This document shows, in pieces, positions 39,382-59,472 of a DNA stretch of 64,000 bases. The notes beneath the pieces are model-generated. The model was given only the letters and a program-made list of their open reading frames with translations. It did no database searches and was not told the origin of the DNA. Source of the DNA: Natronobacterium gregoryi SP2 (lineage in GTDB: Archaea; Halobacteriota; Halobacteria; Halobacteriales; Natrialbaceae); NCBI RefSeq assembly GCF_000230715.2, contig NC_019792.1, positions 2,790,001 to 2,854,000 on the forward strand, given 5' to 3'. Position 1 is the stretch's first letter. Each line of letters starts with the position of its first letter. A program made the position numbers and the translations under genes.

Positions 39382-39478
39382 CAGTCATCGGTAGCTCACA
39401 CTGTTCCATCTTGAATGTTGCCCCGACACCGGCGGTGGTGTTACGTTAGGAACGAGGCAGTCGAAGATTCGGATGCTC

Positions 39479-41237: not shown

Positions 41238-42104
41238 TCACCCGTACTGTGTCAGCGTCTCCGACCGCCACGACTCGAGGTCGGGAACCTGATTGAACGC
41301 GTAGACGTGGACTCCGCAAACGTCGTAGTAAGAATCAGTCGCGTACGGTGCGAGCCCCGCGACCAGTTCGTCGGGGACGTACGTGCCCCGAGAGCCGACG
41401 AGTTCCTTGAGAAAGCCGAGGACGCCGCTAGTCTTCTGCAGGAACCGAATCGAGTCGCCGACGCCGACCTTCCGCGAAATCTGTAGCAGCCGCTGATACT
41501 TCATGACGCCGGGGATACCGACCTCGACCGGCAGGTCGACGCCGCGGCCGCGGATCTCCTCGATCCACTCGAGAATCGTCTGCGGATCGTAACACAACTG
41601 CGTCACGATGTAGGTCGCGTACGGTTCCTTTTTCGCCATCGCCTCGGCCAGCACCTCGTCGTCGAGGAAGTCGTGTCCCTCCGGGTAGCCGGTGATCCCG
41701 ATTCCTTCGAACTCGTACGCGAGGTCCTCGAGTGTCGACAGCAGGTCGTAGGCCGACGTGAACTCGCCGATCGGCTCCTCCCGGTCGCCGCCGGGAACGA
41801 AGACATCGGTGACACCTGCGTCCGTGAGCCGTCCCGCGATCTCCGCCAGGTGATCCTCGTCGCGGACGTAGCGTGCTGCGACGTGTGGGACGACCTCGAA
41901 TCCACGATCTGTGGCGCGTTCGGTCCAGTCGATCGTCGCCTCAAGCCCGAGCGTGGGCGAGGTCGTGATCGCGATCTCTGCCCCGTCAGGGAGGTGTTCG
42001 AGTTGGTCGTCCATACTGTCGAACGGCATCAGCTCGAAGCGTGGCTCCTCGAGTAGTGTCACGATCCCGTCTGCCACCTCGCCAGTCCGTATCTCAGACG
42101 ACAT
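41238..42104 (-). CDS. metF: Methylenetetrahydrofolate reductase-like protein
   Basis: 288-residue TIM-barrel flavoprotein of the MTHFR family, interconverting methylene-THF and methyl-THF. Family marks include EIAITTSPTLGLEATIDW at the substrate side, GITGYPEGHDFLDDE in the middle, and ATYIVTQLCYDPQTILEW with the conserved Gln. It lies 105 bases downstream of a GcvT/DmdA-like methyltransferase on the same strand and probably shares its transcript. In that context it would work in the oxidative direction, turning methyl-THF made by the demethylase into methylene-THF; the direction is inferred. Confidence 0.88.
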   Translation of the reverse strand: MSSEIRTGEVADGIVTLLEEPRFELMPFDSMDDQLEHLPDGAEIAITTSPTLGLEATIDWTERATDRGFEVVPHVAARYVRDEDHLAEIAGRLTDAGVTDVFVPGGDREEPIGEFTSAYDLLSTLEDLAYEFEGIGITGYPEGHDFLDDEVLAEAMAKKEPYATYIVTQLCYDPQTILEWIEEIRGRGVDLPVEVGIPGVMKYQRLLQISRKVGVGDSIRFLQKTSGVLGFLKELVGSRGTYVPDELVAGLAPYATDSYYDVCGVHVYAFNQVPDLESWRSETLTQYG

Positions 42105-42209: not shown

Positions 42210-43586
42210 TCACTCCGAGGCCTCCTCCCTGGCGTCTAGTTTGGCTTTCTCGCGGGCGCTCGGGTTGACCGACGGCTTGAACGGTACCTCCGAGACCTTG
42301 GCGTAGACCGGCTCACCTGGCTCTTCGGCGTACTCGTCGGGCAGATGGACCTGGAACTCCGTCTCGATGTTGCCGTCGTAGACGGCCATCGGATCGCCGT
42401 CGAGTTTCTCGGCCGGGACGAACGCCAGCGCGAGGTTCGTCTCGAGTTCGGGGTTGTACCACGGCGAGGTGACGTAGCCACACTTCTCGCCGGTGTCGGG
42501 ATCGGAGACGAGCCAGAAGTCCGGCGCGTAGTCGCGCACCGGCTCGCCGGCCATCTTGAGGCCGACCATCTTGTGGACGAACGGGTAGTCGCCGTTCTCG
42601 ATCTGTTCTTGCTGGCGCTCGAGTTCTTCCTTGCCGACGTACGCTGTGTCTTTGTCGTCGGGAACCTGGTAGCTGAGGTTGACCTGGAACGGCGAGGTTT
42701 CGTGGTCCATGTCTTGGCCCCACGAGAGGATGCCGGCGGCGATCCGGCGGTGATGGGCCGGTGCGACCTGCATCCCGCCGTGATTCCGAACGGACTCGAG
42801 GACGGGGTCCCAGACGCGTTCGGCGTTCTTCGAAGCCTCCTTGACGTAGATTTCGAATCCTTTCTCGCCGGAGAAACCGGTCTGGCTCACGAGGACTGGC
42901 ACGTCGTTTATTTCGGCTTTCATCAGTCCGTAGTAGGGGATTTCCTCGACTTCTTCGCCGACGACTTCGACCATCACGTCGACGGATTTTGGTCCCTGGA
43001 CTTGCATCGGCGCGACGTCGATTTCGTCGATCTCGACGTCGAACTCTTTGCCGACGTTGACGCCCTGAAGCCACTGCATCAGTGTCGAGTCCGAAATCGA
43101 GAACCAGAACTCGTTCTCGTCCGGTCGCAACAGGACGGGATCGTTGAGGATGCCGCCGTCCTCGTTACAGAGGATGACGTACTTCCCGTGCATCGGTTCG
43201 ATCTCGGTCGCGTCGCGGGTGATGACGTAGTTGGTCAGCGCCTCGGCGTCGGGTCCTTTCACGCGAACCTGCCGTTCGACGGCGACATCCCACAGGGTGA
43301 CGTGATTGACCAGTGCGTCGTACTCCTCCATCATCCCACCTTCTTCGGGCTCTAGCATCCCGCGTGGGTGATAGATGCGGTTGTAGACCGTCGCTCGCCA
43401 CGCGTCGTTCTCGACAAACGACTTGTGGAAAAACGGTGACTTGCGAACCCGCGTCGAGACGAGCAGTTCGATCCCCGGATCGCCGGACTGTCGCAGGTTT
43501 CTCGGGAGCGTTCTGTCCGACTGGTCGACGCTCGGATAGTTCGGATGATCCGCTCGTTCCGTCTGTGGTGGCCCATTGCCAGACAT
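42210..43586 (-). CDS. DmdA/GcvT-like THF-dependent methyltransferase (demethylase)
   Basis: 458-residue aminomethyltransferase-fold protein, longer than GcvT or DmdA (about 370). The GcvT core is seen in LWDVAVERQVRVKGPDAEALTNYV, then PMQVQGPKSVDVMVEVVGE, VSQTGFSGEKGFEIYV and LSWGQDMDHETSPFQVNL; the C-terminal domain follows with YVTSPWYNPELETNLALAFV. These match DMSP demethylase DmdA-like proteins and other methyl-donor demethylases using THF. The substrate could be DMSP, betaine or a related compound; the sequence does not decide. The metF gene directly behind it and two BCCT transporters nearby support methyl transfer to THF. Confidence 0.78.
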   Translation of the reverse strand: MSGNGPPQTERADHPNYPSVDQSDRTLPRNLRQSGDPGIELLVSTRVRKSPFFHKSFVENDAWRATVYNRIYHPRGMLEPEEGGMMEEYDALVNHVTLWDVAVERQVRVKGPDAEALTNYVITRDATEIEPMHGKYVILCNEDGGILNDPVLLRPDENEFWFSISDSTLMQWLQGVNVGKEFDVEIDEIDVAPMQVQGPKSVDVMVEVVGEEVEEIPYYGLMKAEINDVPVLVSQTGFSGEKGFEIYVKEASKNAERVWDPVLESVRNHGGMQVAPAHHRRIAAGILSWGQDMDHETSPFQVNLSYQVPDDKDTAYVGKEELERQQEQIENGDYPFVHKMVGLKMAGEPVRDYAPDFWLVSDPDTGEKCGYVTSPWYNPELETNLALAFVPAEKLDGDPMAVYDGNIETEFQVHLPDEYAEEPGEPVYAKVSEVPFKPSVNPSAREKAKLDAREEASE

Positions 43587-44667: not shown

Positions 44668-46467
44668 ATGGCAGATAAAAGCAAGCAAGGGATACAGGAA
44701 CAATTGTTCCACGCGGAGACGGATCGAGAACCGGGCGATAACAACTGGCAAGGGTTCGGATTCGACATCAACCCGCCCGTCTTCCTCATTGCGGGCGGCT
44801 TGATCGTCGTCTTCGTCGTCCTCTCGCTGGCGTTTCCGGACCAGGCTGGAGCGCTATACCAGGACACGCGAGTTGCGGTTTCTGACTACTTCGACTGGTT
44901 GTTCATCCTGGCCGCGAACATATTCATAGTTTTCATGATTTATCTCGCTATCAGTAAGTACGGTGTAATCCGACTCGGCGGCGTCGACGGAGAGAAAGAG
45001 TTCAGCGATATTTCCTGGATCGCAATGCTGTTTAGCGCGGGCATGGGAATCGGACTCATGTTTTTCGGTGTCGCCGAACCGGTCTTCCATCTCTTCGATC
45101 CACACCTCGGTGCCGAAGCTGGGACCGAAGGTGCCGGCGAAGTGGCGATGGCCGTCTCCCTGTTCCACTGGGGCTTTCACCCGTGGGCCATCTACGCACT
45201 GGTCGCTCTCGGGCTGGCGTTCTTCTCGTACAATCGCGGACTGCCGCTGACGTTCCGTTCGATCTTCTACCCGGTGCTCGGCGACCGAATCTACGGCTGG
45301 CCGGGACATATCATCGACATCTTCACCATCTTCGCGACACTGTTCGGGTTGGTCACATCCCTCGGACTCGGCGCGTTACAGATCAACGCCGGACTAACGT
45401 TCGTCGGCGACGAGGTCGGTGCGTTCCCTGCTGTCCCGGACGCAACCGGGGTAGCCGTCCTGATCATCGGCCTCGTCACGGGCCTTGCAGTTATCTCGGT
45501 TTATCTCGGCCTCGACAAAGGTATTCGACGTCTCAGTAACCTGAATCTCACGCTGATGATCGTTCTCCTGTTTTCGGTGTTCGTCCTCGGACCGACGCTT
45601 TTCATCCTCGGGGCGCTTCCACAGGGTATCGGCGCCTACATCGGTAACTTCTTCGAACTATCGTTCTTTGGCAACTCGTTCGACAACCACTACTTCCAGG
45701 GGTCGGAGTTCTACGGCCCCGGTGGCGAGGGTGAAGGCGCGTTCCTGGTCGACTGGACGGTCTTCTACTGGGCGTGGTGGATCTCCTGGTCGCCGTTCGT
45801 CGGGATGTTCATCGCACGCATCTCGAAAGGCCGAACCATTCGTGAATTCGTCGGTGGCGTCCTCCTGATCCCCGTCGTCTTCTCGTTTGCCTGGTTCGCA
45901 GCGATGGGTGGAACCGCACTCAACTTCGAGATGGCCGACGACACCGCCGGTGCAGTCAGCGGCCCGATGTTCGACGTCGGCGAAGAACTCGCGATGTTCG
46001 CGATGTTCGACCTGATGCCAGGGACAATCATCCTGTCCACGATCGCGATCATACTCGTCACGACGTTCTTCGTGACCTCCTCCGACTCGGGCTCACTCGT
46101 CCTCGAGCATCTAAGCACCGGCGGCAAACACGAGACGCCAGCCACCGGCCGCGTCTTCTGGGCGGCCTCCGAAGGACTCGTCGCAGCGGCGCTGTTGATC
46201 GCCGGCGGCGACGCCGCTGTCGAGGCACTGCAGGCAGCCGCTATCGCAAGCGGCCTCCCGTTTGCCGTCATCTTACTGTTCATGATCTACGCCGTGTTGC
46301 AGGGACTCCAGACGGAGTATGCGATCCTCGAGTCCGACGAGTTTGCCGAGGTTGTCGACGAACTCGAGGAAGACAACGACGTCGTCGTCACGACCCAGCG
46401 TGGCGACCTCGTGACAGAGGTCAAGACGAGAGGTGACAGGGTCGTCGACGTCGATGTCGGCGACTGA
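44668..46467 (+). CDS. BCCT family transporter (betaine/choline/carnitine type)
   Basis: Sodium- or proton-coupled uptake system for quaternary ammonium or sulfonium osmolytes, 599 residues with twelve membrane segments. Diagnostic stretches are MLFSAGMGIGLMFFGVAEPV, the aromatic box region TVFYWAWWISWSPFVGMFIA, and the cytoplasmic RISKGRTIREFVGG. The C-terminal 45 residues are acidic and soluble. MADKSKQGIQ at 44668 with GGAGA before it is chosen over an in-frame ATG 54 bases upstream. The substrate is betaine-like by family and by the demethylation genes around it; the exact compound is unknown. Confidence 0.93.
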   Translation: MADKSKQGIQEQLFHAETDREPGDNNWQGFGFDINPPVFLIAGGLIVVFVVLSLAFPDQAGALYQDTRVAVSDYFDWLFILAANIFIVFMIYLAISKYGVIRLGGVDGEKEFSDISWIAMLFSAGMGIGLMFFGVAEPVFHLFDPHLGAEAGTEGAGEVAMAVSLFHWGFHPWAIYALVALGLAFFSYNRGLPLTFRSIFYPVLGDRIYGWPGHIIDIFTIFATLFGLVTSLGLGALQINAGLTFVGDEVGAFPAVPDATGVAVLIIGLVTGLAVISVYLGLDKGIRRLSNLNLTLMIVLLFSVFVLGPTLFILGALPQGIGAYIGNFFELSFFGNSFDNHYFQGSEFYGPGGEGEGAFLVDWTVFYWAWWISWSPFVGMFIARISKGRTIREFVGGVLLIPVVFSFAWFAAMGGTALNFEMADDTAGAVSGPMFDVGEELAMFAMFDLMPGTIILSTIAIILVTTFFVTSSDSGSLVLEHLSTGGKHETPATGRVFWAASEGLVAAALLIAGGDAAVEALQAAAIASGLPFAVILLFMIYAVLQGLQTEYAILESDEFAEVVDELEEDNDVVVTTQRGDLVTEVKTRGDRVVDVDVGD

Positions 46468-46684
46468 ACGAGCTGTTGTACCTATTTTCACCGGGACGCG
46501 GTCGTGACGGAAATGCTATACAGCGGTCTACCGGTCGTTCGGTGACGACACTGTTCGGGAACCGACAGTCCGAGTCCGCGTTTCGATTTCGCACCGCCCA
46601 TCGGACGTCCTGTCACCGTTTTGCGTTCGGGACGTCGGGCGACGGTGAGGCTGGTCTCGGTTGTCGACTCGCGTGACGTGAGCG

Positions 46685-47119
46685 TTACACGTTCTTGGAC
46701 GACCGAACGACGGTGACGGGCTGTGAGCACATTCGGACGACGTTCTCGGCGTTGGAGCCGAGATACTTCTCGACCGTTCCACGGCCTCGTTCGGCGACGA
46801 CCACGTTGTCGATATCGGTCTCCTGTGCGTAGTCGACGATTTCCTGTGAGATGTTCCCCGTTTTGACCACACCGACGCCGTCTAGTCCTCGCTGTTTGGC
46901 CCGTTCGACGATGTCGGTGACGACTTCCTCTCCGAGCTGTCGGTACTCTTTCATCTCGTCGTCGCTTACGCCGATCGTGAGAATGTACGCCGCTTCAGTC
47001 TCGACGACGTAAATCACGTGAACCGTCGCCCCGAACACCTCTGCGAGGTCGAGTCCGTGCTCGACCGCTACTGACGCCTCGTCGCTCCCGTCCGTAGCGA
47101 TCAGGATGTTGTCTAGCAT
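46685..47119 (-). CDS. Single-domain universal stress protein
   Basis: 144-residue UspA-fold protein: NILIATDGSDEASVAVEHG at the start and the nucleotide motif region AERGRGTVEKYLGSNAENVV near the end. In BCCT-carrying archaea and bacteria, Usp genes beside transporters have been linked to their regulation. Its closest relative in the window is the Usp at 48043 (both share an AYILT or TYILTVG block). MLDNILIATDG at 47119 is chosen as the start. Confidence 0.9.
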   Translation of the reverse strand: MLDNILIATDGSDEASVAVEHGLDLAEVFGATVHVIYVVETEAAYILTIGVSDDEMKEYRQLGEEVVTDIVERAKQRGLDGVGVVKTGNISQEIVDYAQETDIDNVVVAERGRGTVEKYLGSNAENVVRMCSQPVTVVRSSKNV

Positions 47120-47194
47120 GTCCGTGAGCCCAGAAAAATATTCGAACGACGGTATCATATAGTTTGGGTGGCAGCGACGCTCGTTCCGTGTAGC

Positions 47195-47350
47195 TCACTC
47201 CGTGTTGCTCTCCCGGAAGTAGATCGCGAACGCGACGAACGTAAGCAGCGTTCCGGACAAAAAGTGATTCCCTGCCAAGAGAGCGGCGACACTCCCGACG
47301 GCAAACGCTACTGCGAGCACAGTGGCCCCGGTCGCGACGAGGTTCGACAT
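47195..47350 (-). CDS. Small 51-residue membrane protein
   Basis: Short frame from MSNLVATGATVLAVAF to a stop at 47195, with one or two hydrophobic segments and a charged end (YFRESNTE). A textbook CCATATATAAG box lies 25-35 bases before the start. Its position between two Usp genes beside the BCCT transporter suggests it belongs to this stress/osmolyte group. The function is unknown. Confidence 0.65.
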   Translation of the reverse strand: MSNLVATGATVLAVAFAVGSVAALLAGNHFLSGTLLTFVAFAIYFRESNTE

Positions 47351-47374
47351 GTTTCAGAAACGACGCCGATGGAA

Positions 47375-47385
47375 CTTATATATGG
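47375..47385 (-). promoter_or_regulatory. TATA box of the 51-residue membrane protein gene
   Basis: CCATATATAAG on the minus strand is 25-35 bases before the start codon. It is one of the clearest promoter sequences in the window. Confidence 0.6.
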
Positions 47386-47394
47386 TGCGAGGCG

Positions 47395-47418
47395 AAAACC
47401 CACGGCTTCAGCCTGGGG
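47395..47418 (-). terminator. Hairpin with T-tract between two small membrane genes
   Basis: On the minus strand CCCCAGGCT and AGCCGTGGG pair with one bulge around a two-base loop and are followed by TTTT. That resembles an intrinsic terminator ending the upstream transcript just before the next promoter. The same sequence also resembles end hairpins of IS200/IS605 elements, so it may be a captured element end. Confidence 0.45.
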
Positions 47419-47433
47419 AGCCCAAATGTATCG

Positions 47434-47604
47434 TCAGCTGATAGTTTCGGTCCACTCGGACGCTAGCCCGACACCACCGAGACTCGCTGCAACAGCACCG
47501 AGCACGACATTCAGAACGTCACCGCCGAGTGCTCCCGTCACCAGAAAAGCCGTGCCGCCGGTGAGCAAGAACAGCCGAACGATCGTTCGGCCACGCCAAT
47601 GCAT
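47434..47604 (-). CDS. Small 56-residue membrane protein
   Basis: Frame MHWRGRTIVRLFLLTGGTAF to TETIS with two hydrophobic segments separated by GGDVLNVV. It starts 33 bases after the stop of the 96-residue membrane protein on the same strand, so it is probably the second gene of that unit. No family recognised. Confidence 0.6.
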   Translation of the reverse strand: MHWRGRTIVRLFLLTGGTAFLVTGALGGDVLNVVLGAVAASLGGVGLASEWTETIS

Positions 47605-47637
47605 CCGCTTACACCCCCTCGGTCGCCCCGTTCGCTC

Positions 47638-47928
47638 TCACCACGGCCAGCCTTCCCACGGATCGTCGGCCTCTTCGCTGTCGACGCGCTGTAGGTTCGT
47701 CTCGTCCCTGTCGTATCCCAGCCACACTGCCAACAGCATCGAGACGAACACGAGATAGATCGGAAACAAAAGCGCCACGAGAACGACGGTAACTGGCTCG
47801 AGAAGCGAGAGTGCGCCCATCCAGTGGAGCGCGACGACCACCGAGAGCCCACCGATCACCGCGAGACGAAAGCCGCTCTCGAATAGTTGGTTCGCGATCG
47901 GTCCCGGAGAGACGCTCGAACGAGGCAT
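47638..47928 (-). CDS. Small 96-residue membrane protein
   Basis: Two predicted membrane helices (about 22-43 and 48-72), a proline-rich start (MPRSSVSPGPIANQLFESGF) and an acidic tail ending DDPWEGWPW. I recognise no family. Leading methionines further upstream would add 13-25 residues; the start at 47928 gives a clean N terminus. It is the first gene of a two-gene unit with the 56-residue membrane protein, between two Usp genes. Confidence 0.65.
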   Translation of the reverse strand: MPRSSVSPGPIANQLFESGFRLAVIGGLSVVVALHWMGALSLLEPVTVVLVALLFPIYLVFVSMLLAVWLGYDRDETNLQRVDSEEADDPWEGWPW

Positions 47929-48042
47929 ATCCGGGGTATGGAGCAGACTCGAATAAGCCATGTGATGTCGAGTCGCCGTGGCTGTGGGGCGTGGCACGAC
48001 CACCGCGTGGGAAGCATGTGAGCGGGGACATACCGGTCGGCG

Positions 48043-48468
48043 TCAACCCTCGACGACGACAGTCACCGCGTCGTCTACCCTTCGCATGACGTTTTCCGCA
48101 GTACTGCCAAGGTGTCTGTCGACCGCACCGTGGCCCTGTTTTCCCATGACGACGGCGTCGACGTCGTTGTCACTCGCGTACTCGGCGATCTCTTCGGACG
48201 GACGGCCAGTCTTGACGACACCGTTTGCCTCGAGTCCTCGTTCGACGGCTTCTTCAACGACCTCCGTAACGGTTTCGCGGCCGTACTCCTTGTACTGTTC
48301 CAGTTCGGCGTCCGAAAGACCGACCGTCAGAATGTAGGTTGCTTTGGTTTCGACCACGTACACGGCGTGTATCTTTGCAGTCGTTCGTTCGGCGACCTCG
48401 AGGCCGTAGTCGACACATCCCTGGGCTGCGTCGCTGCCGTCCGTCGCGATCAAAACGTTGTCGTACAT
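48043..48468 (-). CDS. Single-domain universal stress protein
   Basis: 141-residue UspA-fold protein beginning MYDNVLIATDGSDAAQGCVD, with GKQGHGAVDRHLGSTAENV near the end. Its TYILTVGLSDAELEQYKEYG block parallels the Usp at 46685, so they are probably duplicates flanking the small membrane proteins. It is divergent from the potassium channel; about 150 bases separate the two starts. Confidence 0.9.
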   Translation of the reverse strand: MYDNVLIATDGSDAAQGCVDYGLEVAERTTAKIHAVYVVETKATYILTVGLSDAELEQYKEYGRETVTEVVEEAVERGLEANGVVKTGRPSEEIAEYASDNDVDAVVMGKQGHGAVDRHLGSTAENVMRRVDDAVTVVVEG

Positions 48469-48590
48469 GTGCCCTCGTCCTCGGCTCGTGAGGAGTATCG
48501 ACGGGACAACACATAACCCTTACTTTTGTTACCATATAACATACCACTGCCGGTTGTCGAGCGGCGGCGCGGTTCCGCCTCCGCCAGTAG

Positions 48591-48597
48591 TTATATA
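48591..48597 (+). promoter_or_regulatory. TATA box of the potassium channel gene
   Basis: TTATATA lies 23-29 bases upstream of the GTG at 48620, supporting that non-ATG start on a leaderless mRNA. Confidence 0.55.
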
Positions 48598-48619
48598 GCT
48601 TGGGCTGGTACCGTCTCGG

Positions 48620-49840
48620 GTGGCAACCGACTCGCCAGACTCATCGGAGCCGGCGCTCGAGCGACTGTTTTATCACAGCGAGCGGATTCGGCTCGTCCAC
48701 TGGCAGGAGTTCTCCGGAGCGAAAACGGCCGTCGTACTGACCGGGTTCGTCGCCGTCCTCGCGTTCGTCACCGGCCTCTCGAATCTCAGCCGGCCGGCCG
48801 TAACGTACGACGGACCACTGGCGGCCTTGCTTCCGTGGGAACCGGGAGTCGTGCAGTTTACCGGCGTCTTGCTCGCGTTCGTTCTCGGCGCGCTCGTCAT
48901 CGGGCTACAACGACGCAAGCGATTGGCGTGGTACCTCGGGCTAGTCACACTCCCGCTCGCGACGGTGTTGCCACTGACGACGTTCCAGACGACGGACATT
49001 CCCCTCTTGCTCTCGGTGCTCGTGGCACTCCCGCTGTTGCTCGTCAACCGAGACGCGTTCGACCAGCGGATCGAACTCTCGTCGCTCCAGATCGCGTCAC
49101 TGTCCTCGATCGTCGGCGTCGTCCTGTACGGCACTATCGGCTCGTACGCCCTGCAAGACCAGTTCGCCGGACTCGAGACGTGGGGCGACTCGGTGTACTA
49201 CGTCGTCGTCACGATCGCAACCGTCGGTTACGGCGACATCACGCCGCTGACGACCGAAGCAAAGTGGTTCTCGCTCTCGGTTATCCTCTTCGGAACGGGG
49301 GCGTTCACCGTCGCGATCGGATCACTGATCGTCCCGGCAATCGAGAAACGGATGGCTACTGCGTTCGGAAACATGACACCGTCAGAACTCTCCCTCCTCG
49401 AGGACCACGTCCTGGTCCTCGGGCACAGCGACATCACGGAATCGGTACTCGACGAACTCGAGACGGAGATCGACGTCGTGATCGTCACTCGTGACGTCGA
49501 CGACGCCGCCGAACTGAACGACCGGGACGTCAACGTCCTCACCGACGATCCGACCCACGAAGAGACGTTACAGGACGCCAGGGTCGGCGACGCGTCGGGT
49601 GTCGTCGTCGCGACGCGGGACGACGCCAACGATGTCCTGGCCGTCCTCGCCGCACGAAAGGCGAACCCGGAGGTCCGCATCGTCGCCGCAGCAAACGACC
49701 GCCAGCACGTTGGCAAACTCGAGCAGGTCGGCGCCGACGAGGTGGTCAGTCCGACGGCGATCGGTGGCCGCCTCCTCGGCCGATCGGTTCTCGCGAACGA
49801 ATCCGCCGAGTCGCTGTTCGAAGACACGGACGACGCGTGA
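48620..49840 (+). CDS. RCK-type potassium channel
   Basis: 406-residue ion channel. The N-terminal membrane part (about 32-250) has several helices and a pore loop with the selectivity filter TVGYGD at residues 201-206. The C-terminal part from about 262 is a TrkA-N (RCK) Rossmann domain (LEDHVLVLGHSDITESVLDEL) that gates the pore by nucleotide or ion binding. Potassium is the main cytoplasmic osmolyte of haloarchaea, so it fits the osmolyte transporters on both sides. Translation starts at GTG 48620. Confidence 0.88.
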   Translation: MATDSPDSSEPALERLFYHSERIRLVHWQEFSGAKTAVVLTGFVAVLAFVTGLSNLSRPAVTYDGPLAALLPWEPGVVQFTGVLLAFVLGALVIGLQRRKRLAWYLGLVTLPLATVLPLTTFQTTDIPLLLSVLVALPLLLVNRDAFDQRIELSSLQIASLSSIVGVVLYGTIGSYALQDQFAGLETWGDSVYYVVVTIATVGYGDITPLTTEAKWFSLSVILFGTGAFTVAIGSLIVPAIEKRMATAFGNMTPSELSLLEDHVLVLGHSDITESVLDELETEIDVVIVTRDVDDAAELNDRDVNVLTDDPTHEETLQDARVGDASGVVVATRDDANDVLAVLAARKANPEVRIVAAANDRQHVGKLEQVGADEVVSPTAIGGRLLGRSVLANESAESLFEDTDDA

Positions 49841-50083
49841 GACGGACCGCTGTCGAACGAATTGGCGCGGTTACGACCAACCTTCGGTCGCGACGTCATT
49901 GACTTTCGACAGCCCGTCCGAGTCGCCGTCACGGTTTCCACGGAGCGAACCACGTTCTATCGAAATACAGACAGGACGTGTTCGGCGACGATCGAAGGCG
50001 AGGTCGACTTTCGTCCACCCGGAACCGGAATACCGCTTTCGGTGGTGGGGAACTGATTTAGGACCGGCTGTTGACCGGCCGAC
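49841..50083. other. 243-base gap without a gene
   Basis: Between the channel and the second BCCT gene there is no gene I can support and no known repeat. A GGAACCGGAATACC stretch near 50020-50033 is unremarkable. A promoter for the transporter should lie at its end, but no clear TATA box is seen; GATTTAGG at 50054-50061 is the best candidate. Confidence 0.3.
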
Positions 50084-51940
50084 ATGGGCATCGAGGGCGT
50101 CAGCACGGCCGAACGGATGCTCCGGAAGCTGCTGGCCCCGCTCTGTGTTCTCTCGGGAATCGTCGTCGTGTCGGGATTTTTCTTCCCCGAACTCGTCGGC
50201 GAGACGATATCCGGTCGCGCCTGGCTCACTATTTCGCTCGTGTTCTTCGCCTCCGGTCTGAGCTACCTTGCAGTGTTACCAACCGCAAGCGACGAGCGCG
50301 AACAAGCGTTCGATTCGGACTACCTGCTTCGCGTTCGCCGACTCGAGGTTGGTGACGTTCTCGAGGGGTTTCTCGACCGACAAGATCCGGTTACGGTCGG
50401 CGTGCCAGTCCTCGCGTTCGGGCTCTTTTTCCTCGGGCAGTTGTTGCTGCCGTCGACGACGATGGCGGTCGTCGCTGCCACACAGGCGGCCGTCACGACG
50501 TATGCAGGCTGGCTGTTCTCCGGAATCGTCTTGCTTGCAGTAGCGTTCTGTCTGGCGCTGCTGGTCGGGCCCTGGGGATCGGTGAGACTTGGTGGATCTG
50601 ACGTCGAACCGGCCTACACGTATCCGGTCTACTTCACGATGGTCTTCACGGCCGGCATCGCCGCCGGAATCGTCTTCTGGGGGCCGGCGGAAGCGTTGTT
50701 TCACTACGAAACGCCGCCGTCGTATTTCGAAGTCGAACCACAGTCAGAGGAGGCGGCGGGAGCGGCGTTGACCTACGCGCTGTTTCACTGGGGATTCTGG
50801 GCCTGGAGCGTCTACATCGCCGTCGGCGTGCCGATCGCCTACTACGTGTACCAGCAGGACGCACCGCTTCGGGTATCGACGATACTGACGCCGTTTCTCG
50901 GCGTCGACAACCTCGATTCGGTCTGGTGTCGACTCGTCGATCTGCTCGCCGTCTTCGCGACGATCGGCGGCATCGCGACCTCGATCGCACTCGTCGGCGA
51001 CCAGTTTCTCACGGGGATCGACGTCCAGTGGGGCGTCGGGTTCGGCGTCGCGGAATCGGTCCTGTTCGTCGCCGGATTGACGTTCGTCTTCGTCGTCTCG
51101 GCACAGAGCGGCGTCCATCGAGGAATACGGCGGATCGCCGGCGTCAACGTCGTGTTGTTCGGCCTGTTCGCTGCGCTGTTTTTCGCCGTTGCGCCACGAA
51201 CCGTCGTGGTCGAAAGCAGTGTGCATGCGGTCGGAAGCTACGCGAGACACGCGGTTCCGATGAGTCTCCACCTCGGGAACGGACTGGTCGCCGACCGCTG
51301 GGTCGCCGACTGGACGATCTGGAACTGGGCGTGGTGGTTCTCCTGGGCACCGTTTGCCGGCCTCTTTCTGGCGGCGCTCTCCCGAGGTCGGCGCATTCGA
51401 ACGGTTGTCCTGACGGGATTCGTCGCAACGTCGCTTGCGACGATCGTCTGGTTTCTCCTGCTCGGTTCTACCTCCCTTCACCTCCAGCAGACGAGTACCG
51501 TCGACGCGCTCGCGGCGATCGACGCCCACGGTCGGTCCGAAGCCGTCGCAGGCTTTCCGGTCTTCGAGGCGTTCTCGATCGGCCAGTTGCTCGTGTTCGT
51601 CTTCCTGGCGCTGATCGTCGTCTTCATGGCGACTTCCGCCGACACGTCGACGCTCGTCGTGGCAGTCCTGGCGACCAGACGCGAGTTCGCCCCGACCACC
51701 GGTGCGATCCTCTTCTGGGGCATCTTCCAGGGTGTCGTCGCCATCTCGGTACTTGTCACCGACAGCGCCGAACTCCTGCAGGCAATGGCCGTGTTGACCG
51801 GCGCTCCCTTCGCACTCCTCGCCCTGATCGCGCTCGTCGGTCTCGCCGGAACGCTTCGCGAGCGCGAACGCGGACGCCGATCGATCGTCGTTGCCATCCG
51901 CTCGAGACTGTCCGAAAACAGAGAAAACGACGAGCGGTGA
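50084..51940 (+). CDS. BCCT family transporter with extended N terminus
   Basis: Second betaine-family transporter, 618 residues, clearly diverged from the first. Family blocks are PVYFTMVFTAGIAAGIVFWG, ALFHWGFWAWSVY, and WNWAWWFSWAPFAGLFLAAL with SRGRRIRTVVLTG. The conserved core starts near residue 110; before it lie about 100 residues with two membrane helices (about 18-36 and 44-63) and a basic linker, absent from ordinary BCCT proteins. It is convergent with the formate dehydrogenase gene, 17 bases apart. Confidence 0.88.
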   Translation: MGIEGVSTAERMLRKLLAPLCVLSGIVVVSGFFFPELVGETISGRAWLTISLVFFASGLSYLAVLPTASDEREQAFDSDYLLRVRRLEVGDVLEGFLDRQDPVTVGVPVLAFGLFFLGQLLLPSTTMAVVAATQAAVTTYAGWLFSGIVLLAVAFCLALLVGPWGSVRLGGSDVEPAYTYPVYFTMVFTAGIAAGIVFWGPAEALFHYETPPSYFEVEPQSEEAAGAALTYALFHWGFWAWSVYIAVGVPIAYYVYQQDAPLRVSTILTPFLGVDNLDSVWCRLVDLLAVFATIGGIATSIALVGDQFLTGIDVQWGVGFGVAESVLFVAGLTFVFVVSAQSGVHRGIRRIAGVNVVLFGLFAALFFAVAPRTVVVESSVHAVGSYARHAVPMSLHLGNGLVADRWVADWTIWNWAWWFSWAPFAGLFLAALSRGRRIRTVVLTGFVATSLATIVWFLLLGSTSLHLQQTSTVDALAAIDAHGRSEAVAGFPVFEAFSIGQLLVFVFLALIVVFMATSADTSTLVVAVLATRREFAPTTGAILFWGIFQGVVAISVLVTDSAELLQAMAVLTGAPFALLALIALVGLAGTLRERERGRRSIVVAIRSRLSENRENDER

Positions 51941-51957: not shown

Positions 51958-54123
51958 TCAGTCGTCGGCCGCCGGCTCGAGGCCGACCTCGATCTCTGCG
52001 GCTGCGGCCTTGTACTCTGGAATCTTCGCTCGCTCGTCGAGGACGTCGTTCGTCAACTTGTTCGCGGAGGCGGCCGCGAAGTGGGGCGTCGTCCAGACGA
52101 CGCCTTCCTTGGTGTCCTCGGTGACCTGTGCCTCGACGGTGATCTCGCCGCGGCGCGATTTGAGGCCCACTTTCTCGCCGTCCTCGATGCCGTACCGTTC
52201 GGCGTCGTTCGGGTGGACGTCGACGAAGTTCTCCGGCGTCTGGCGGTTCAGCGTCGGCGAGCGGCGACTCATCGTCCCCGTGTTGTAGTGTTCCTCGAGA
52301 CGCGCGGTCGTCAGGATCAGCGGGTACTCGTCGTCGGGCGTCTCCTTCGGCGGCTGGTGGGTGACGCCCTCGATGTGGCCCTTGCCGCTCTCGGTGTCGA
52401 ACTCGTGTTCGTAGAGGAATGGATCGCCCTCGTCGCCGGGCTGGTAGCAGGGCCAGTGCAGTCCCTCCTCCCCGAGGTTGTCGTAGGTCATCCCGTGGTA
52501 GATCGGACAGACCTCGCGGAGCTCCTCGAACACCTCCTCGGGATCGTCGAAGTCGAAGCCCTCGCCGGACTCCGTCCGGCTCTCCGAGGAACGTGACTCC
52601 TCGCCGCCGAATAGCCGAGAGCCGACTTCCGAGAGGATCTCGAGGTCGTGTTTCGTGTTCTCGTGTACTTTGTCGACGCCGCGCATCCGCTGGACGCGCC
52701 GGTCGGTGTTCGTGACGGTGCCGTCGCGTTCGGCCCAGGTCGTCGCCGGCAGGACGACGTCGGCGTACTTCGCCGTCTCGGTCATGAAGATGTCCTGAAC
52801 CACCATGAACTCGAGTTCCTGAATGCGCTCGGCGACGCTGTTGGCGTCGGGTTCGGACATGACGGGGTTTTCGCCCATGACGTACAGACCGTGGACCGAG
52901 GTGCCGAACTGGTGGGAGACTTCGACGTTGGTCAGGCCCGGTTCGTCGGGTACCTCGAACCCCCAGACGTCCTCGACGCGGGTGCGGGCCTCGTCGTCGT
53001 CGACCAGCTGGTAGCCCGGGAGGACGTTCGGCATCGCGCCGACGTCGCAAGTCCCCTGGACGTTGTTCTGTCCCCGAAGCGGGTTGACGCCCGTCCCCGG
53101 CCGGCCGATGTTGCCCGTGATCAACGCGAGGTTGATCTCGTTTTGGACATTGTCGACGCCGCAGGCGTGCTGACTCATCCCCATCCCGGTGAAGATGGCG
53201 GCGTTGTCCGCTTTCGCGTACTTCTCGGCGGCCAGTTCGATCGCTTCCAGATCGAGCCCGCACTCCTCGGCGGCGGCCTCCTTGTCGAAGCCCTCGAGGG
53301 TCTCTTTCAGATCCTCGAACCCCTCGGTGCGAGTCTCGACGAACTCCTCGTCGATCCAGCCGTCCGCCGGGTGCTCTTCGTGGTGGTCGAGGATCGTCTC
53401 GAGGACGATATTCAGTAGCGGAATGTCGGTGCCGGGGTTCAACTGGAGGTGCTGGTGGCGATCCGTCTCGTCGATCTGGAACGAGCGCGTCGTCTTGTTC
53501 GCATGCGGGTCGACCTGGATCACCGTCGCGCCCTCGAGGACGGCCTGGCGGAAGTACTGGCTGTTCGCGATCGGATGCTGTTCGCCCGGGTTCGCACCCT
53601 GAATCCAGAACAGGTCACACGCCTCCTCTAAGTCGGCCATGCTGTTCGTCATCGCGCCCGCGCCCAGGCTCGTCCGTAGCGCCCAGACCGTCGAAGCGTG
53701 ACACATCCGCGTACAGTTGTCGACGTTGTTGGTGCCGTACCGGCGAGCGATCTTCTGGAGGAGGTAGTTCTCCTCGTTCATCGTCTTCGAGGAGCCGAAA
53801 AAGCCCATCGCGTCCGGACGGTATTCCTCGCGGATGCGCTCGAGTTCCTCGACGACCAGGTCGTAGGCCTCTTCCCAGCTAGCTTCTCGGAACTCGCCGT
53901 CCTCTTTGATCAGCGGCTCGGTCAGTCGGTCCTCGTGGTCGACGACCTCCGTCGCCGCGCCGCCCTTGATACAGACTCGACCCTCGTTTACCGGCGCGTC
54001 GCCCCACGGCATGAACTGGACGTCGCCCGGTTCCTCCCCCTGCTTGACCTGGATGCCACAGCCGACGCCACAGTACGGACAGATCGTCTTCGTCGGTCCG
54101 GACTCGGGGTCGTCAGTCGACAT
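51958..54123 (-). CDS. fdhF: Formate dehydrogenase, molybdopterin catalytic subunit
   Basis: Oxidises formate to CO2; 721 residues. An N-terminal 4Fe-4S site has Cys15, Cys18, Cys22 and Cys51. The metal ligand is Cys141 followed by His142 in NCTRMCHASTV, the FdhF-type Cys-His pair, and the molybdopterin domains contain GSSKTMNEENYLLQK, WIQGANPGEQHP and GRPGTGVNPLRGQNNVQGTCD. A disordered serine-rich insert sits near residues 500-515. No beta or gamma subunit is next to it, so the electron acceptor is unknown. ATG 54123 has AGGTGATC before it and is preferred to a GTG three codons upstream. It would consume formate from formyl-THF. Confidence 0.9.
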   Translation of the reverse strand: MSTDDPESGPTKTICPYCGVGCGIQVKQGEEPGDVQFMPWGDAPVNEGRVCIKGGAATEVVDHEDRLTEPLIKEDGEFREASWEEAYDLVVEELERIREEYRPDAMGFFGSSKTMNEENYLLQKIARRYGTNNVDNCTRMCHASTVWALRTSLGAGAMTNSMADLEEACDLFWIQGANPGEQHPIANSQYFRQAVLEGATVIQVDPHANKTTRSFQIDETDRHQHLQLNPGTDIPLLNIVLETILDHHEEHPADGWIDEEFVETRTEGFEDLKETLEGFDKEAAAEECGLDLEAIELAAEKYAKADNAAIFTGMGMSQHACGVDNVQNEINLALITGNIGRPGTGVNPLRGQNNVQGTCDVGAMPNVLPGYQLVDDDEARTRVEDVWGFEVPDEPGLTNVEVSHQFGTSVHGLYVMGENPVMSEPDANSVAERIQELEFMVVQDIFMTETAKYADVVLPATTWAERDGTVTNTDRRVQRMRGVDKVHENTKHDLEILSEVGSRLFGGEESRSSESRTESGEGFDFDDPEEVFEELREVCPIYHGMTYDNLGEEGLHWPCYQPGDEGDPFLYEHEFDTESGKGHIEGVTHQPPKETPDDEYPLILTTARLEEHYNTGTMSRRSPTLNRQTPENFVDVHPNDAERYGIEDGEKVGLKSRRGEITVEAQVTEDTKEGVVWTTPHFAAASANKLTNDVLDERAKIPEYKAAAAEIEVGLEPAADD

Positions 54124-54275
54124 CGGGATCACCTGTGTGAGTGCTGGTCATGGTATACCGTATCGTCTCGGCCGACGGCAATCAAAGTTTCTCCGGGACC
54201 GCCGCCGCGCCGCAGTATCGACCGTCGTCGTGACGGAAACGTTCACACGGTCGGCCGTCGTACCCCGCGAGCAGG

Positions 54276-54844: not shown

Positions 54845-56557
54845 TCAGAACAGCCCCGAAATACTCCCGTCGGAGTGCAGTTCCATGCTCTCGGCTGCTG
54901 GCTCCGCCGGGAGCCCCGGCAGCGTGAGCACGTCGGCGGTCAACACCACCAGGAAACCCGCTCCTGCCGACGGGTAAATCTCGTTTACCTCGAGCGTCCA
55001 GTCCTCGGGGACGCCCTTCTCGCTCGCGTCGTCGCTCAGCGAGTGGAACGTCTTCGAGAGACAGATCGGCACGTCGTCGAACCCCAGTTCTGTCAGCCGG
55101 TCGATGTCGTCTCTGGCGTCGCTGTGGAACTCGACGCCGTCGGCACCGTAGATCTCGGTGGCGACGGTCTCGATCTTCTCTTCGATGGAAGCCTCGAGGT
55201 CGTACAGCGGTTCGAACTCCGACTCGGCGTCGGCAGCCTCGACGAGGTGTTCGGCGAGTTCGATCCCGCCTTCGCCGCCCTCGGCGAAGACGGTCGACTC
55301 TGCGGCCGGCACGCCGAGTTCGTCCTCGCAGTGCTCGACGACGGCCTCGACCTCGGCGTCGGTGTCCTGCGGGAAGCGGTTGACGGCGACGACGACCGGG
55401 ACGCCGAACTGCTGGAGGTTCCGGACGTGTTTCTCCAGGTTCTCGAGGCCGTCGTAGACGGCGTCGACGTCTTCTTCCTCGAGTGCGTCGACGTCTGGCG
55501 GCCACATGTCCTGGCCGTGGTACTTCAGCGCGCGGACGGAGGCGACGAGAGCGACGGCGTCGGGTTCGACGTCGCCGAAGCGGGAGACGATGTTCATGAA
55601 CTTCTCGGCCCCCAGGTCGGAGCCGAAGCCGGCTTCGGTGACGAGGTACTCCGAGAGGTGGGCGGCGACCTCGTCGGCGATCAGGGAGTTGGTGCCGTGG
55701 GCGATATTGGCGAACGGACCGCCGTGGACGAACGCCGGCGTCCCCTCGATCGTCTGGACGACGTTGGGTTTCAGTGCGTCTTTCAAGAGGATCGCGGCGG
55801 CGTCGGTCGCGCCGAGGTCGTCGACCGTGACCGGGTCGCCGTCCTCGTCGTAGGCGACGATGATCCGTGCGATGCGTTCTTTGAGGTCCTCGAGTCCGTC
55901 GGCGAGACAGAGCACGGCCATCAGTTCCGAGGCAGCGGTCAGGATGAACCCGTCCTCGCGGGGGATGCCGGTCACGTCGCCGCCCAGGCCGACGACCGTC
56001 TCGCGGAGGACCCGATCGTTCATGTCGATCGCACGCGGCCAGTTGATCCAGTTGACCGCGATGTCGAGTTCGTTGCCCTGCTTGATGTGGTTGTCCAGTA
56101 TCGTCGCGATGAGGTTGTGTGCGGAGGTCAACGCGTGCAGGTCGCCCGTGAAGTGGAGGTTGATGTCCTCCATCGGGAGCACCTGCGAGTAGCCACCGCC
56201 CGCGGCCCCGCCTTTGACGCCGAAGACGGGGCCAAGCGACGGTTCCCGGATCGCGACGAGCGCGTCTTCCCCGAGTTGGTTCAACGCCTGCCCGAGTCCG
56301 ACCGTCGTCACCGTCTTCCCCTCGCCTAGCGGCGTCGGCGTCATCCCGGTGACGAGGATCGTCTTGCCCGCGGGGTCGCCCTCCTCGCGGAGCCGCTCGA
56401 TGGCCTCGAGTTCGACCTTCGCTGTCTCCTCGCCGAGCAGTTGGAGGTCGTCCGCCTCGAGGCCGTAGGGTTCGACGACGTCGGTGATGTGTTTCGTGGT
56501 TACTGACTGTGCGATTTCGTAGTCCGACGGTATCGATCCGCCTTCGTCTGCACTCAT
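54845..56557 (-). CDS. fhs: Formate--tetrahydrofolate ligase
   Basis: Interconverts formate, ATP and THF with formyl-THF and ADP; 570 residues. The P-loop variant TPLGEGKTVTTVGL is at residues 75-88, followed by REPSLGPVFGVKGGAAGGGYSQV and GLGGDVTGIPREDGF, all conserved. In a degradation pathway it would run backwards, making formate and ATP from formyl-THF. MSADEGGSIPSDYEIAQ at 56557 is chosen; the frame upstream continues but is not family-like. It is separated from the convergent unknown gene by 11 bases, and divergent from the FAD-GcvT gene. Confidence 0.93.
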   Translation of the reverse strand: MSADEGGSIPSDYEIAQSVTTKHITDVVEPYGLEADDLQLLGEETAKVELEAIERLREEGDPAGKTILVTGMTPTPLGEGKTVTTVGLGQALNQLGEDALVAIREPSLGPVFGVKGGAAGGGYSQVLPMEDINLHFTGDLHALTSAHNLIATILDNHIKQGNELDIAVNWINWPRAIDMNDRVLRETVVGLGGDVTGIPREDGFILTAASELMAVLCLADGLEDLKERIARIIVAYDEDGDPVTVDDLGATDAAAILLKDALKPNVVQTIEGTPAFVHGGPFANIAHGTNSLIADEVAAHLSEYLVTEAGFGSDLGAEKFMNIVSRFGDVEPDAVALVASVRALKYHGQDMWPPDVDALEEEDVDAVYDGLENLEKHVRNLQQFGVPVVVAVNRFPQDTDAEVEAVVEHCEDELGVPAAESTVFAEGGEGGIELAEHLVEAADAESEFEPLYDLEASIEEKIETVATEIYGADGVEFHSDARDDIDRLTELGFDDVPICLSKTFHSLSDDASEKGVPEDWTLEVNEIYPSAGAGFLVVLTADVLTLPGLPAEPAAESMELHSDGSISGLF

Positions 56558-56831
56558 ATCGGTCCCTTTTCCCGATCGCTTCATAAGTGTTGACGCCACG
56601 CATAGCGTTCCGGATACGACGAGGTTCCGTTCGCGCTCGTCGCCGGGAACGAGATCTGACACACGGAAGCGAACGACCGAAACACGACCCATAACCGACC
56701 TGATTGCTTGTGGTGTGGGCTACCGACCGATTCGTTTCGTTCCATCGCCACTCTACGCTCCGAGCAAGATTCGTCCTCGGGCCCTACGACCTCGTCCCTC
56801 GTCACGTAACCTGCGTGTCAGATGTACGTCC

Positions 56832-56935: not shown

Positions 56936-59464
56936 ATGAGCAGCGACTTTCCCTCGAGTGCGGGGACGGTAATCATCGGTGCCGGAATCGTCGGCAACAG
57001 CCTCGCGTACCACCTCTCGAAACAGGGTCGAGACGATATCCTCCTGATGGACAAGGGACCGCTCCCGGACCCAGGCGGGTCGACGGGACACGCGTCGAAC
57101 TTCCTGATGCCGGTCGAGCACTCGAAGGAGATGACCCACCTCACCCGCCGCTCGATCGAGCAGTACGAGGACATGGACACGTTCACGAACAGCGGCGGAA
57201 TCGAGGTCGCCCGAACCGACGAGCGGATGGCGGAACTAAAACGGCGCGTCCAGTCGGCCAAAGCCTGGGGTGAGCCCGGCGAGTTGCTCTCCGTCGAGGA
57301 GGTCGAGGAGATGGTGCCCTACGTCAATACCGACATCATCGAGGGCGGGTTCTACAGCCCGGGCGCCGGCACCTGCGACCCGCTGCGGGCCGGCGAAGTG
57401 ATGCGGGCACGAGCCGATCACGAAACTGACGGCGGACTCACCGTCTCGCCGAACACGGAGGTGCTCGACTTACACGTCGAGGACGACGCGATACAGGCCG
57501 TCGAGACTGACCGTGGCACTGTCGAGGCAGGCGAGGTCGTCATCGCCGCGGGGCTGTGGAGCCCCAAGATTGCACAGATGGCAGGCGTCGAGATCCCGCT
57601 GACGCCCGCCGTCCACCAGATGGTCAGCGTCGGACCGATCTCCTTCTTCGAGGACTACGACGGCGAAATCTCGTTCCCCGTCGTCCGGGACATGGACACC
57701 CAGATGTACGAGCGCCAGCACGGGAACGACTTGGAGGTCGGCTCCTACCAGCACCGACCGATCCTCTGGGACGTCGACGACGTGCCGTCGATCGACGAGG
57801 CACCGCTGTCGCCGACCCAGCCGCCGCTGACCGACGACGCCTTCGAGCAGTCGATGGCAGACGCACTCGAGATCGTCCCCGAACTGCTCGACGACCCGCA
57901 GGCGGGCGTTCGCCACGAAATCGACGGTTTGCTGTCGGTGACGCCGGACGGCGCGCCCCTGCTCGGCCCGCTGCAAGACGTCGAGGGGCTGTGGTCGTGT
58001 GCCGCGGTCTGGATCAAGGAAGCGCCCGCGATCGGCGAGGCCGTCGCCCAGTGGATGACGCGTGGCTGGTCGGACATCGACCTCCATGGCTCCGACGTCA
58101 ACCGGTTCTACGAGTACGGCACCTCCCAGGAGTTCGTCGAGAACCGAGGCCACGAGGGGTTCCAGAAGATCTACGGGATCGTCCACCCCGCAGAGCAGTG
58201 GCAGAGTTCGCGGCCGCTCCGACAGAGTCCGTTCTACGACCGCCAGGAGGACCTCGGCGCACGATTCTTCGAGGCCGCCGGCTGGGAACGACCCCAGTGG
58301 TACAGCTCCAACGAGGACCTCGTCCGGACGTACAACGAAGAACTCGAGGGACTACTCCGGGGCAACGAGTGGGACTCGCGGTGGTGGTCGCCGATCATCC
58401 TCGGCGAACACCTCCACATGCGCGACCACGTCGCCATGGTCGGCGACATGGGCTTCGGGAAGTTCGACTTCGTCGGCTCGGACGTCGTCGAGTACGTGGA
58501 GCAGATGGCCGTCGGGCGGACGGACGTCGACATCGGGAAGACGGTCTACACGCCGATCCTCGCGGAGAACGGCGGCTTCGTCTCCGACCTGACGATCGCC
58601 CGTCTTGGGCCGGAACACTACAGAGTTATCACCGGCGGTGCAGCAGCAGGCTCCGACCGCGCGTGGTTCGAGCGCCACCTCCCCGAGGACGGCGACGTCA
58701 CGATGATCGACCGCTCGGAGTCGCTGTGTACGCTCGGCGTCTGGGGGCCCGACGCCCGCGAGGTCGTCCAGTCCGTCACCGAGGAGGACATGTCCCACGA
58801 GGCGTTTCCGCCGTACACCGCCCAGGAGATCACCGTCGGCGAGGTCGACGCCTGGGCGATGCGACTCTCCTACGTCGGCGAACTCGGCTGGGAGATCTAC
58901 GCTCCCGCAGCCACGGGCGGCCGCCTCTGGGACACCATCGCCGCGGCCGGCGAGGAGTACGACATCCGGCCCGTCGGGATGGGCGTCTACGGAACGACCG
59001 GGCGCATGGAGAAAGGCTACCGGCTCTTCGGCCACGAACTCGAACTCGAGTACGACCCGGCCGAAGCCGGACTGACCTTCCACGGCGTCAAAGAGGCCGA
59101 CTTCATCGGGAAGGAGGCCTACGCCGAGGCGATCGACGAGGAGAACGCGGCTACGCTCTGTACGCTCTCGGTCGACGACCACACCTCGGAGTCGGGCGAG
59201 CGCCGGTTCATGCTGGGGAACGAACCGGTCCTCGACGACGGCGAGGTGATCGTCGACGAGGAAGGCCGAGAGTCGTACGTCACGAGCGCGGGGACCGGCC
59301 CGAGCGTCGGCAAACACCTGCTGCTGGCGTACCTTCCGCCCGAACACGCCGAGGAAGGACGGCAACTGCAGGTCGAGTACATGGGCGAGCAGTACCCGGT
59401 GACCGTCGAGGTCGTCGGCAGCCGACCGCTGTTCGACCCCGAGAACGACCGCATCCGCAGCTAG
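56936..59464 (+). CDS. FAD-dependent dimethylglycine/sarcosine dehydrogenase-like fusion with GcvT domain
   Basis: 842-residue two-part enzyme. Residues 10-370 are a DAO-type FAD domain: dinucleotide motif VIIGAGIVGNSLAYHL (12-27) and, after it, STGHASNF, where His52 is in the place of the covalently linked histidine of dimethylglycine dehydrogenase. Residues about 430-840 are a GcvT/THF domain. The length and order match dimethylglycine and sarcosine dehydrogenases, which oxidise an N-methyl group and hand it to THF as methylene-THF. ETF genes follow at once and would take the electrons. The exact substrate is inferred. Confidence 0.87.
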   Translation: MSSDFPSSAGTVIIGAGIVGNSLAYHLSKQGRDDILLMDKGPLPDPGGSTGHASNFLMPVEHSKEMTHLTRRSIEQYEDMDTFTNSGGIEVARTDERMAELKRRVQSAKAWGEPGELLSVEEVEEMVPYVNTDIIEGGFYSPGAGTCDPLRAGEVMRARADHETDGGLTVSPNTEVLDLHVEDDAIQAVETDRGTVEAGEVVIAAGLWSPKIAQMAGVEIPLTPAVHQMVSVGPISFFEDYDGEISFPVVRDMDTQMYERQHGNDLEVGSYQHRPILWDVDDVPSIDEAPLSPTQPPLTDDAFEQSMADALEIVPELLDDPQAGVRHEIDGLLSVTPDGAPLLGPLQDVEGLWSCAAVWIKEAPAIGEAVAQWMTRGWSDIDLHGSDVNRFYEYGTSQEFVENRGHEGFQKIYGIVHPAEQWQSSRPLRQSPFYDRQEDLGARFFEAAGWERPQWYSSNEDLVRTYNEELEGLLRGNEWDSRWWSPIILGEHLHMRDHVAMVGDMGFGKFDFVGSDVVEYVEQMAVGRTDVDIGKTVYTPILAENGGFVSDLTIARLGPEHYRVITGGAAAGSDRAWFERHLPEDGDVTMIDRSESLCTLGVWGPDAREVVQSVTEEDMSHEAFPPYTAQEITVGEVDAWAMRLSYVGELGWEIYAPAATGGRLWDTIAAAGEEYDIRPVGMGVYGTTGRMEKGYRLFGHELELEYDPAEAGLTFHGVKEADFIGKEAYAEAIDEENAATLCTLSVDDHTSESGERRFMLGNEPVLDDGEVIVDEEGRESYVTSAGTGPSVGKHLLLAYLPPEHAEEGRQLQVEYMGEQYPVTVEVVGSRPLFDPENDRIRS

Positions 59465-59472
59465 CATTACGC

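Follow-up and report, generated by a model that had tools for sequence, protein, structure and literature searches.

Haloarchaea hold molar K+ inside the cell, and the usual view is that they can do without organic osmolytes; carriers of the BCCT family have long been studied as self-contained trimers, and we know of no small subunit for any BCCT carrier. Two described gene associations are close to the locus analyzed here. In four haloarchaea, dimethylglycine oxidase genes lie near BCCT genes, and the passages describing them raise the use of betaine (Anderson et al. 2011; PMC3102087). In Vibrio natriegens, a cluster for the catabolism of betaine, dimethylglycine and sarcosine comes with BCCT uptake (PMC12093977, abstract). 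We analyzed a stretch of 64,000 nucleotides from Natronobacterium gregoryi SP2 (contig NC_019792.1, positions 2,790,001 to 2,854,000; hereafter the window), in which two BCCT genes (BCCT1 and BCCT2) enclose two universal stress protein (Usp) genes, three genes for small membrane proteins (SMP1, SMP2 and SMP3) and a gene for a Kch-type K+ channel. As judged from the sequences, these genes probably make up the transport portion of an island by which haloarchaea take up and demethylate methylated osmolytes, i.e., glycine betaine or a close analogue.

As in the four haloarchaeal loci, BCCT genes in the window are associated with a dimethylglycine oxidase-like gene, whereas the channel, the Usps, the small proteins and the DmdA-like enzyme found here go unmentioned in the passages of PMC3102087. 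In common with the V. natriegens cluster are BCCT uptake, contiguous demethylation genes and the (here predicted) transfer of methyl groups to folate; that cluster, however, begins with the Rieske monooxygenase gene gbcA, which is absent from this genome, and its abstract mentions neither a K+ channel nor SMP3 (PMC12093977). The association of BCCT with dimethylglycine oxidase is already known (PMC3102087, in part), while searches that excluded subscription papers brought up nothing on the channel pair or on the small proteins with a BCCT, so that their novelty is unproven.

Gene layout of the transport part

An earlier note on this DNA, written from the letters alone, had described two BCCT transporters around Usp genes, small membrane proteins and a K+ channel with an RCK domain, and each of these is present where the note had put it. 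In window coordinates, the features are:

44668..46467, + strand: BCCT1, Na+-coupled-type BCCT transporter (PF02028, 588 bits; an alternative GTG start at 44614 is possible)
46685..47119, − strand: UspA, universal stress protein (PF00582, 102 bits)
47195..47350, − strand: SMP3, 51-residue two-helix membrane protein (alignment of relatives; AlphaFold hairpin)
47434..47604, − strand: SMP2, 56-residue small membrane protein (alignment with relatives; dN/dS)
47638..47928, − strand: SMP1, ~96-residue two-helix membrane protein (start chosen from relatives)
48043..48468, − strand: UspB, universal stress protein (PF00582, 91 bits)
48494..48544, − strand: conserved block 5′ of UspB, likely a promoter/operator region (DNA alignment of four genomes; promoter judged by eye)
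48620..49840, + strand: Kch paralog, K+ channel (PF07885, 54 bits; PF02254, 93 bits)
50084..51940, + strand: BCCT2, BCCT transporter (PF02028, 422 bits)

Both transporters pass the PF02028 cut-off (27), share 29% identity over 500 columns and are the only BCCT genes of the genome (one contig of 3.79 Mb). The five Usp and SMP genes run on the minus strand, which the note had not mentioned, i.e., opposite to both BCCT genes and the channel gene, whose GTG start has its own TATA-like stretch close by (read by eye). UspA and UspB likewise exceed the PF00582 cut-off (24) and are 54% identical over 138 residues, and the three small proteins between them, as the note had supposed, are genuine genes: the ratio of nonsynonymous to synonymous substitution rates (dN/dS) was 0.04 to 0.52 in every pair computed, indicating purifying selection on SMP1, SMP2 and SMP3. 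Neither they nor their scanned relatives had a Pfam or NCBIfam match above cut-off, and DNA repeats in the Usp/SMP stretch amounted to Usp-coding similarity and chance.

SMP3 keeps to BCCT1

With a 13-row alignment of SMP3 relatives we searched all six frames of 243 genomes from the order, blind to neighboring genes, and obtained 65 matches in 63 genomes; exclusion of two weak partial matches (G213 and G238; E ~0.005) left 63 strong ones. BCCT1 lay within 6 kb of 62 of the 63 (the remaining match is at a contig end) and a Usp gene within 6 kb of 55. For 59 of the 65 matches, the distance to a listed type-1 BCCT gene was 114–2064 bp, and 59 of the 89 listed type-1 BCCT genes had SMP3 within 4 kb. 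The arrangement itself varies: SMP3 may follow BCCT1, diverge from it, or lie farther off with SMP1 and the two small proteins C14 and c7 (see below) in between. As controls, we used 42 BCCT loci without SMP3 (22 type-1 loci and 20 others picked by hand across families); none had SMP1, C14 or c7 beside the BCCT gene, and eight had a Usp, a count that a broadened Usp model did not change. When 280 genomes were drawn from the phylum as a whole, SMP3 matched nine times, always within this order.

The predicted structure of SMP3 (AlphaFold) is a two-helix hairpin with a predicted local distance difference test score (pLDDT) of 94.5, to which Foldseek found no match in the PDB at E ≤ 0.001; residues G27, G33, R46 and E47 are invariant in the family. 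Because its gene nearly always adjoins that of BCCT1, SMP3 is a candidate partner of this transporter, and would most likely be a small accessory subunit or stabilizer, which the linkage makes a sound inference.

A separate K+ channel paralog accompanies BCCT2

The channel of the window has a TVGYGD filter (invariant in the alignment), an RCK (TrkA_N) domain and six hydrophobic stretches. It resembles Kch/MthK-type RCK channels in the filter and in TrkA_N, with MthK as its best PDB match, but differs from them as a separate paralog found only beside BCCT2, and a search for a TrkA_C domain in it found none. At 180 bits, it does not reach the voltage-gated Kch equivalog PRK10537 (cut-off 425). 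Used as a query, it retrieved a housekeeping paralog (~46% identity) from nearly all of the 243 genomes and, distinct from this, a set scoring at least 424 bits in 40 genomes, joined by two contig-end fragments at 70% identity. The BCCT2 subfamily (at least 470 bits) occurs in the same 42 genomes, which span eight families. The two genes adjoin in 41 of the 42, codirectionally with the channel upstream in 28 and divergently in 13, across gaps of 47–363 bp; in the remaining genome (G002) they are on two contigs, with BCCT2 near a contig end. In comparison, these genomes have 17 housekeeping Kch copies, and no listed BCCT gene is found at 10 kb or less from any of them.

A DmdA-like gene is present in all 42 Kch/BCCT2 genomes, compared with 61 of the 243 overall (Fisher 1e-32, uncorrected for relatedness), and SMP3 is present in 41, the exception being a genome that is 61% complete. 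Within 8.5 kb of the 42 BCCT2 loci, the transport genes were Kch (41), Usp (18), BCCT1 (18), SMP3 (18) and SMP1 (6), and the catabolic genes were those for FolD (26), formate dehydrogenase alpha subunit (FdhA; 21), formate-tetrahydrofolate ligase (13), dimethylglycine dehydrogenase-like proteins (13) and the DmdA-like enzyme (4). Both modules stand side by side, as in the window, in 18 of the 42. Haloarcula hispanica carries all parts on plasmid pHH400, with the two modules ~38 kb apart; the same plasmid encodes FolP, formate-tetrahydrofolate ligase, two FAD-dependent oxidoreductases, MTHFR, a DmdA-like protein, DHFR, FolD and PabA/B.

By these genome-wide counts, the gene associations exceed chance, although the genomes are interrelated and the counts overstate their independence. 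The loci used for neighborhood counts were fetched through SMP1 or BCCT2 matches, with gene calls in relatives made by script; the results free of neighbor bias are the searches with SMP3 and with SMP1 and the comparison of the two channel paralogs.

Osmotic control and horizontal transfer as rival explanations of the linkage

The earlier note had read the locus as a shared osmotic control unit, and its interpretation as a whole is partly supported. Co-occurrence of the small proteins and Usps with BCCT genes across haloarchaea, on which that reading was to be judged, holds for SMP3, for SMP2 (four genomes, all at this locus) and for the channel. It divides for SMP1, with a BCCT or channel gene within 6 kb of 22 of its 43 places and neither near the other 21. 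Usp genes go with SMP3 at 55 of its 63 places; as a class, with 72 members in this genome, they lie for the most part at other sites. The control unit finds no support in the form the note gave it: every genome with the channel pair (42/42) or SMP1 (38/38) also has a DmdA-like gene, and the neighbors serve methyl-group and formate catabolism.

In its full form, this explanation has the BCCTs import a compatible solute at salt upshift, the channel trim K+, and the Usps and small proteins regulate, with the catabolic neighbors there by accident. The 18 genomes in which BCCT, K+ channel and Usp genes stand side by side speak for it, and a bacterium that switches between KCl and betaine is on record (PMC7042295, in part). 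However, 163 of the 243 genomes have a BCCT whereas the channel pair is limited to the DmdA-like set, and folate and formate genes recur as its neighbors. Because of this distribution and these neighbors, we consider a purely osmotic unit unlikely and reject it as the principal explanation; an osmotic role of the island is possible.

The linkage could also exist without function, as one horizontally moved block whose co-occurrence says nothing of physical or functional coupling. The island is patchy (61 of 243 genomes), sits on megaplasmids in Haloarcula and is missing in every part from one closely related member of the genus (G140), all of which would fit such a block. Yet SMP3 and Kch keep to their own BCCT through changing gene orders, orientations and distances, and SMP3 stands beside BCCT1 even in six genomes without a DmdA-like gene, which makes this explanation quite unlikely.

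Transporter residues point to a likely methylated onium substrate

BCCT1 has the GMGIG hinge and the aromatic boxes of its family, and its best PDB match is TmaT (8zw8, 458 bits), followed by BetP; the nearest PDB relatives of BCCT2 are TmaT and then DddT. With TmaT and BetP (TC 2.A.15), both proteins share the fold, the aromatic boxes of transmembrane helices 4 and 8 (W/W/Y and WW..W, aligned with the TmaT residues) and the Thr-Ser pair of the Na2 site. Of the BetP Na1 residues read from the alignments, the equivalent of T246 is kept and that of T250 is L or I. BCCT2 differs from TmaT and BetP by GIAAG in place of GMGIG and by two extra N-terminal helices (residues ~8–33 and ~44–64), which are kept across the subfamily, while the rest of the protein has the BCCT fold; the N-terminal part is tentative, given a pLDDT of 45–80 and small structure alignments (26 and 13 rows). 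Neither transporter reaches the glycine betaine BCCT equivalog NF047988 (489 and 349 bits, respectively; cut-off 650). Since the aromatic boxes and Na2 residues are kept, a methylated onium substrate and Na+ coupling are likely, and our best guess for the cargo is betaine, dimethylglycine or a similar compound. The titles of entries 9i5z and 9i8u name potassium-dependent states of BetP.

The surroundings encode folate-linked one-carbon catabolism

The genes that flank the transport part encode, by family, proteins for passing the methyl groups of methylated amines on to folate and oxidizing them to CO2:

41238..42104, − strand: MTHFR-like protein (PF02219, 44 bits)
42210..43586, − strand: DmdA-like/GcvT-fold tetrahydrofolate (THF) methyltransferase (demethylase)
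51958..54132, − strand: formate dehydrogenase alpha subunit (TIGR01591, 735 bits, exceeding the cut-off)
54845..56692, − strand: formate-tetrahydrofolate ligase (PRK13505, 807 bits, exceeding the cut-off)
56936..59464, + strand: dimethylglycine oxidase/dehydrogenase-like FAD + GCV_T protein (best PDB match 1pj5)
59469..61211 (approximate limits), + strand: electron transfer flavoprotein (ETF) subunits, beta then alpha (alpha by ETF and ETF_alpha; beta by eye and relatives)

The predicted protein at 56936..59464 has the full-length FAD + GCV_T architecture of dimethylglycine oxidase/dehydrogenase: it matches dimethylglycine oxidase (1pj5) with 480 bits over residues 8–841 and contains the domains DAO, FAO_M, GCV_T and GCV_T_C.

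The best NCBIfam name for the DmdA-like gene is dimethylsulfoniopropionate (DMSP) demethylase (PRK12486), for which its score of 236 bits falls below the cut-off (410). In DmdA, W171 in the alignment of PMC7487153 (197 in the chain, by our count) is described there as the DMSP-specific residue. The folate-site Glu and Tyr of DmdA (178E and 180Y) correspond to E245 and Y247, which all 27 aligned sequences keep, but F replaces the DMSP-specific W in the window protein and in all 27 aligned haloarchaeal relatives, and we therefore did not file the window enzyme as DmdA. That the island serves DMSP, with a true DMSP demethylase and DddT-like DMSP importers, is decidedly improbable despite the NCBIfam name, the resemblance of the BCCT2 hinge GIAAG to GVASG of DddT and the rank of DddT as the second PDB relative of BCCT2, given the lost W and the dimethylglycine-oxidase-like enzymes and serine/threonine ammonia-lyase of the island, which indicate glycine derivatives.

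Proposed function of the island

Because the surroundings are those of folate one-carbon catabolism, the locus is best read as a system that imports and degrades methylated osmolytes and has a K+ partner. BCCT1 and BCCT2 would import the osmolyte with Na+; the DmdA-like and dimethylglycine-dehydrogenase-like enzymes would hand its methyl groups to THF; and MTHFR, FolD, formate-tetrahydrofolate ligase and formate dehydrogenase would carry them by way of formate to CO2, with electrons leaving through ETF, all as suggested by the families of the proteins. In the first module (BCCT1, SMP3 and Usp), linkage suggests that SMP3 acts with BCCT1, and Usp is probably a regulator. In the second, the dedicated K+ channel would act with BCCT2, most likely passing K+ to offset the charge and osmotic load of Na+-coupled import in a molar-K+ cell; more speculatively, K+ may exit through the channel while osmolyte and Na+ enter.

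Several observations weigh against this import and breakdown function. In 24 of the 42 genomes the two modules do not lie within 8.5 kb of each other, so that they do not form an obligate whole, and six of 61 SMP3 genomes are without a DmdA-like gene. Neither BCCT is tied to a substrate, and the best PDB relative of BCCT1 is a trimethylamine-specific transporter. The absence of a GbcA-like betaine monooxygenase from this genome leaves the first step from betaine unproven; considered across the order as a complement of the DmdA-like enzyme, GbcA-like Rieske enzymes occur in 34 of 243 genomes and overlap with the 61 DmdA-like genomes in 10, which is about chance (one-sided Fisher 0.33, likewise uncorrected for relatedness). 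Finally, two haloarchaea are reported to draw no growth benefit from betaine (PMC3102087, in part). On pNG700 of H. marismortui, a ring-hydroxylating oxygenase lies between two FAD enzymes and is GbcA-like at 132 bits (cut-off 670; L197:45348-46487).

A bolder version, which we regard as doubtful, would make SMP3 the first carrier subunit in the BCCT family and join BCCT2 and its dedicated channel in one complex or circuit; K+ would be traded for a methylated osmolyte that is then eaten via folate, the first enzyme being a new THF-dependent, DmdA-related betaine demethylase. If the import and breakdown function is true, the pairing of channel and importer in a methyl-catabolism island would show how a salt-in cell eats compatible solutes with its salt balance intact, and SMP3 would offer BCCT carriers a candidate partner protein.

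SMP1, SMP2, Usps and other neighbors

SMP1 carries the motif PGPxAxxAF...LxVWLGY; its strong relatives number 43 places, spread over 38 genomes, all 38 of which have the DmdA-like gene. Of the 43 places, 37 have a one-carbon gene within 6 kb, and none lacks both a one-carbon gene and a BCCT or channel gene at that distance. Weak matches (E 0.00006 to 0.01, mostly within long frames) were not counted, save one that adjoins SMP3 (G034; 5.6e-5); a contig scan with SMP1 alone as query gave four loci. SMP2 is known from four genomes of one family (f1), at the same position in each, and no relatives beyond that family were found in the loci searched.

In Halomonas, a TeaD-type Usp is described as regulating an osmolyte transporter, and there as here a Usp gene stands beside an osmolyte importer. 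The Halomonas transporter is of another family than BCCT, namely TRAP.

Further small proteins recur at these loci. C14 is an acidic single-helix protein of ~75–98 residues with a C-terminal DDEWKY (L036:11926-12222, L069:11945-12241 and relatives) and without a curated family match; at each of the 15 places found, BCCT1 and c7, a four-helix protein, are both no more than 6 kb away. An HTH_10 protein (c4) lies within 6 kb of 30 of the 43 SMP1 places, often facing SMP1 (L038-L056, in Haloarcula and others), and is a candidate regulator of the island. Beside BCCT1, 44104-44409 (+) encodes a small protein (cluster d29) that begins like a zinc ribbon, has two to three hydrophobic stretches and lacks a Pfam match; it likewise adjoins BCCT1 in L037 and L077.

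No tRNA genes were found in the window. To the left of the island, a frame at 39473-39940 (+) resembles a truncated IS6-type transposase, recognized by eye. Amid the one-carbon genes, 54276-54833 (+) encodes an OGG-like protein slightly below the PF21790 cut-off, relatives of which adjoin FdhA in L109 and L112. At the right edge, an aldehyde ferredoxin oxidoreductase gene (62873-64000, −) is interrupted by the window end, and a relative of it (d37) lies near FdhA in L108, L109 and L112.

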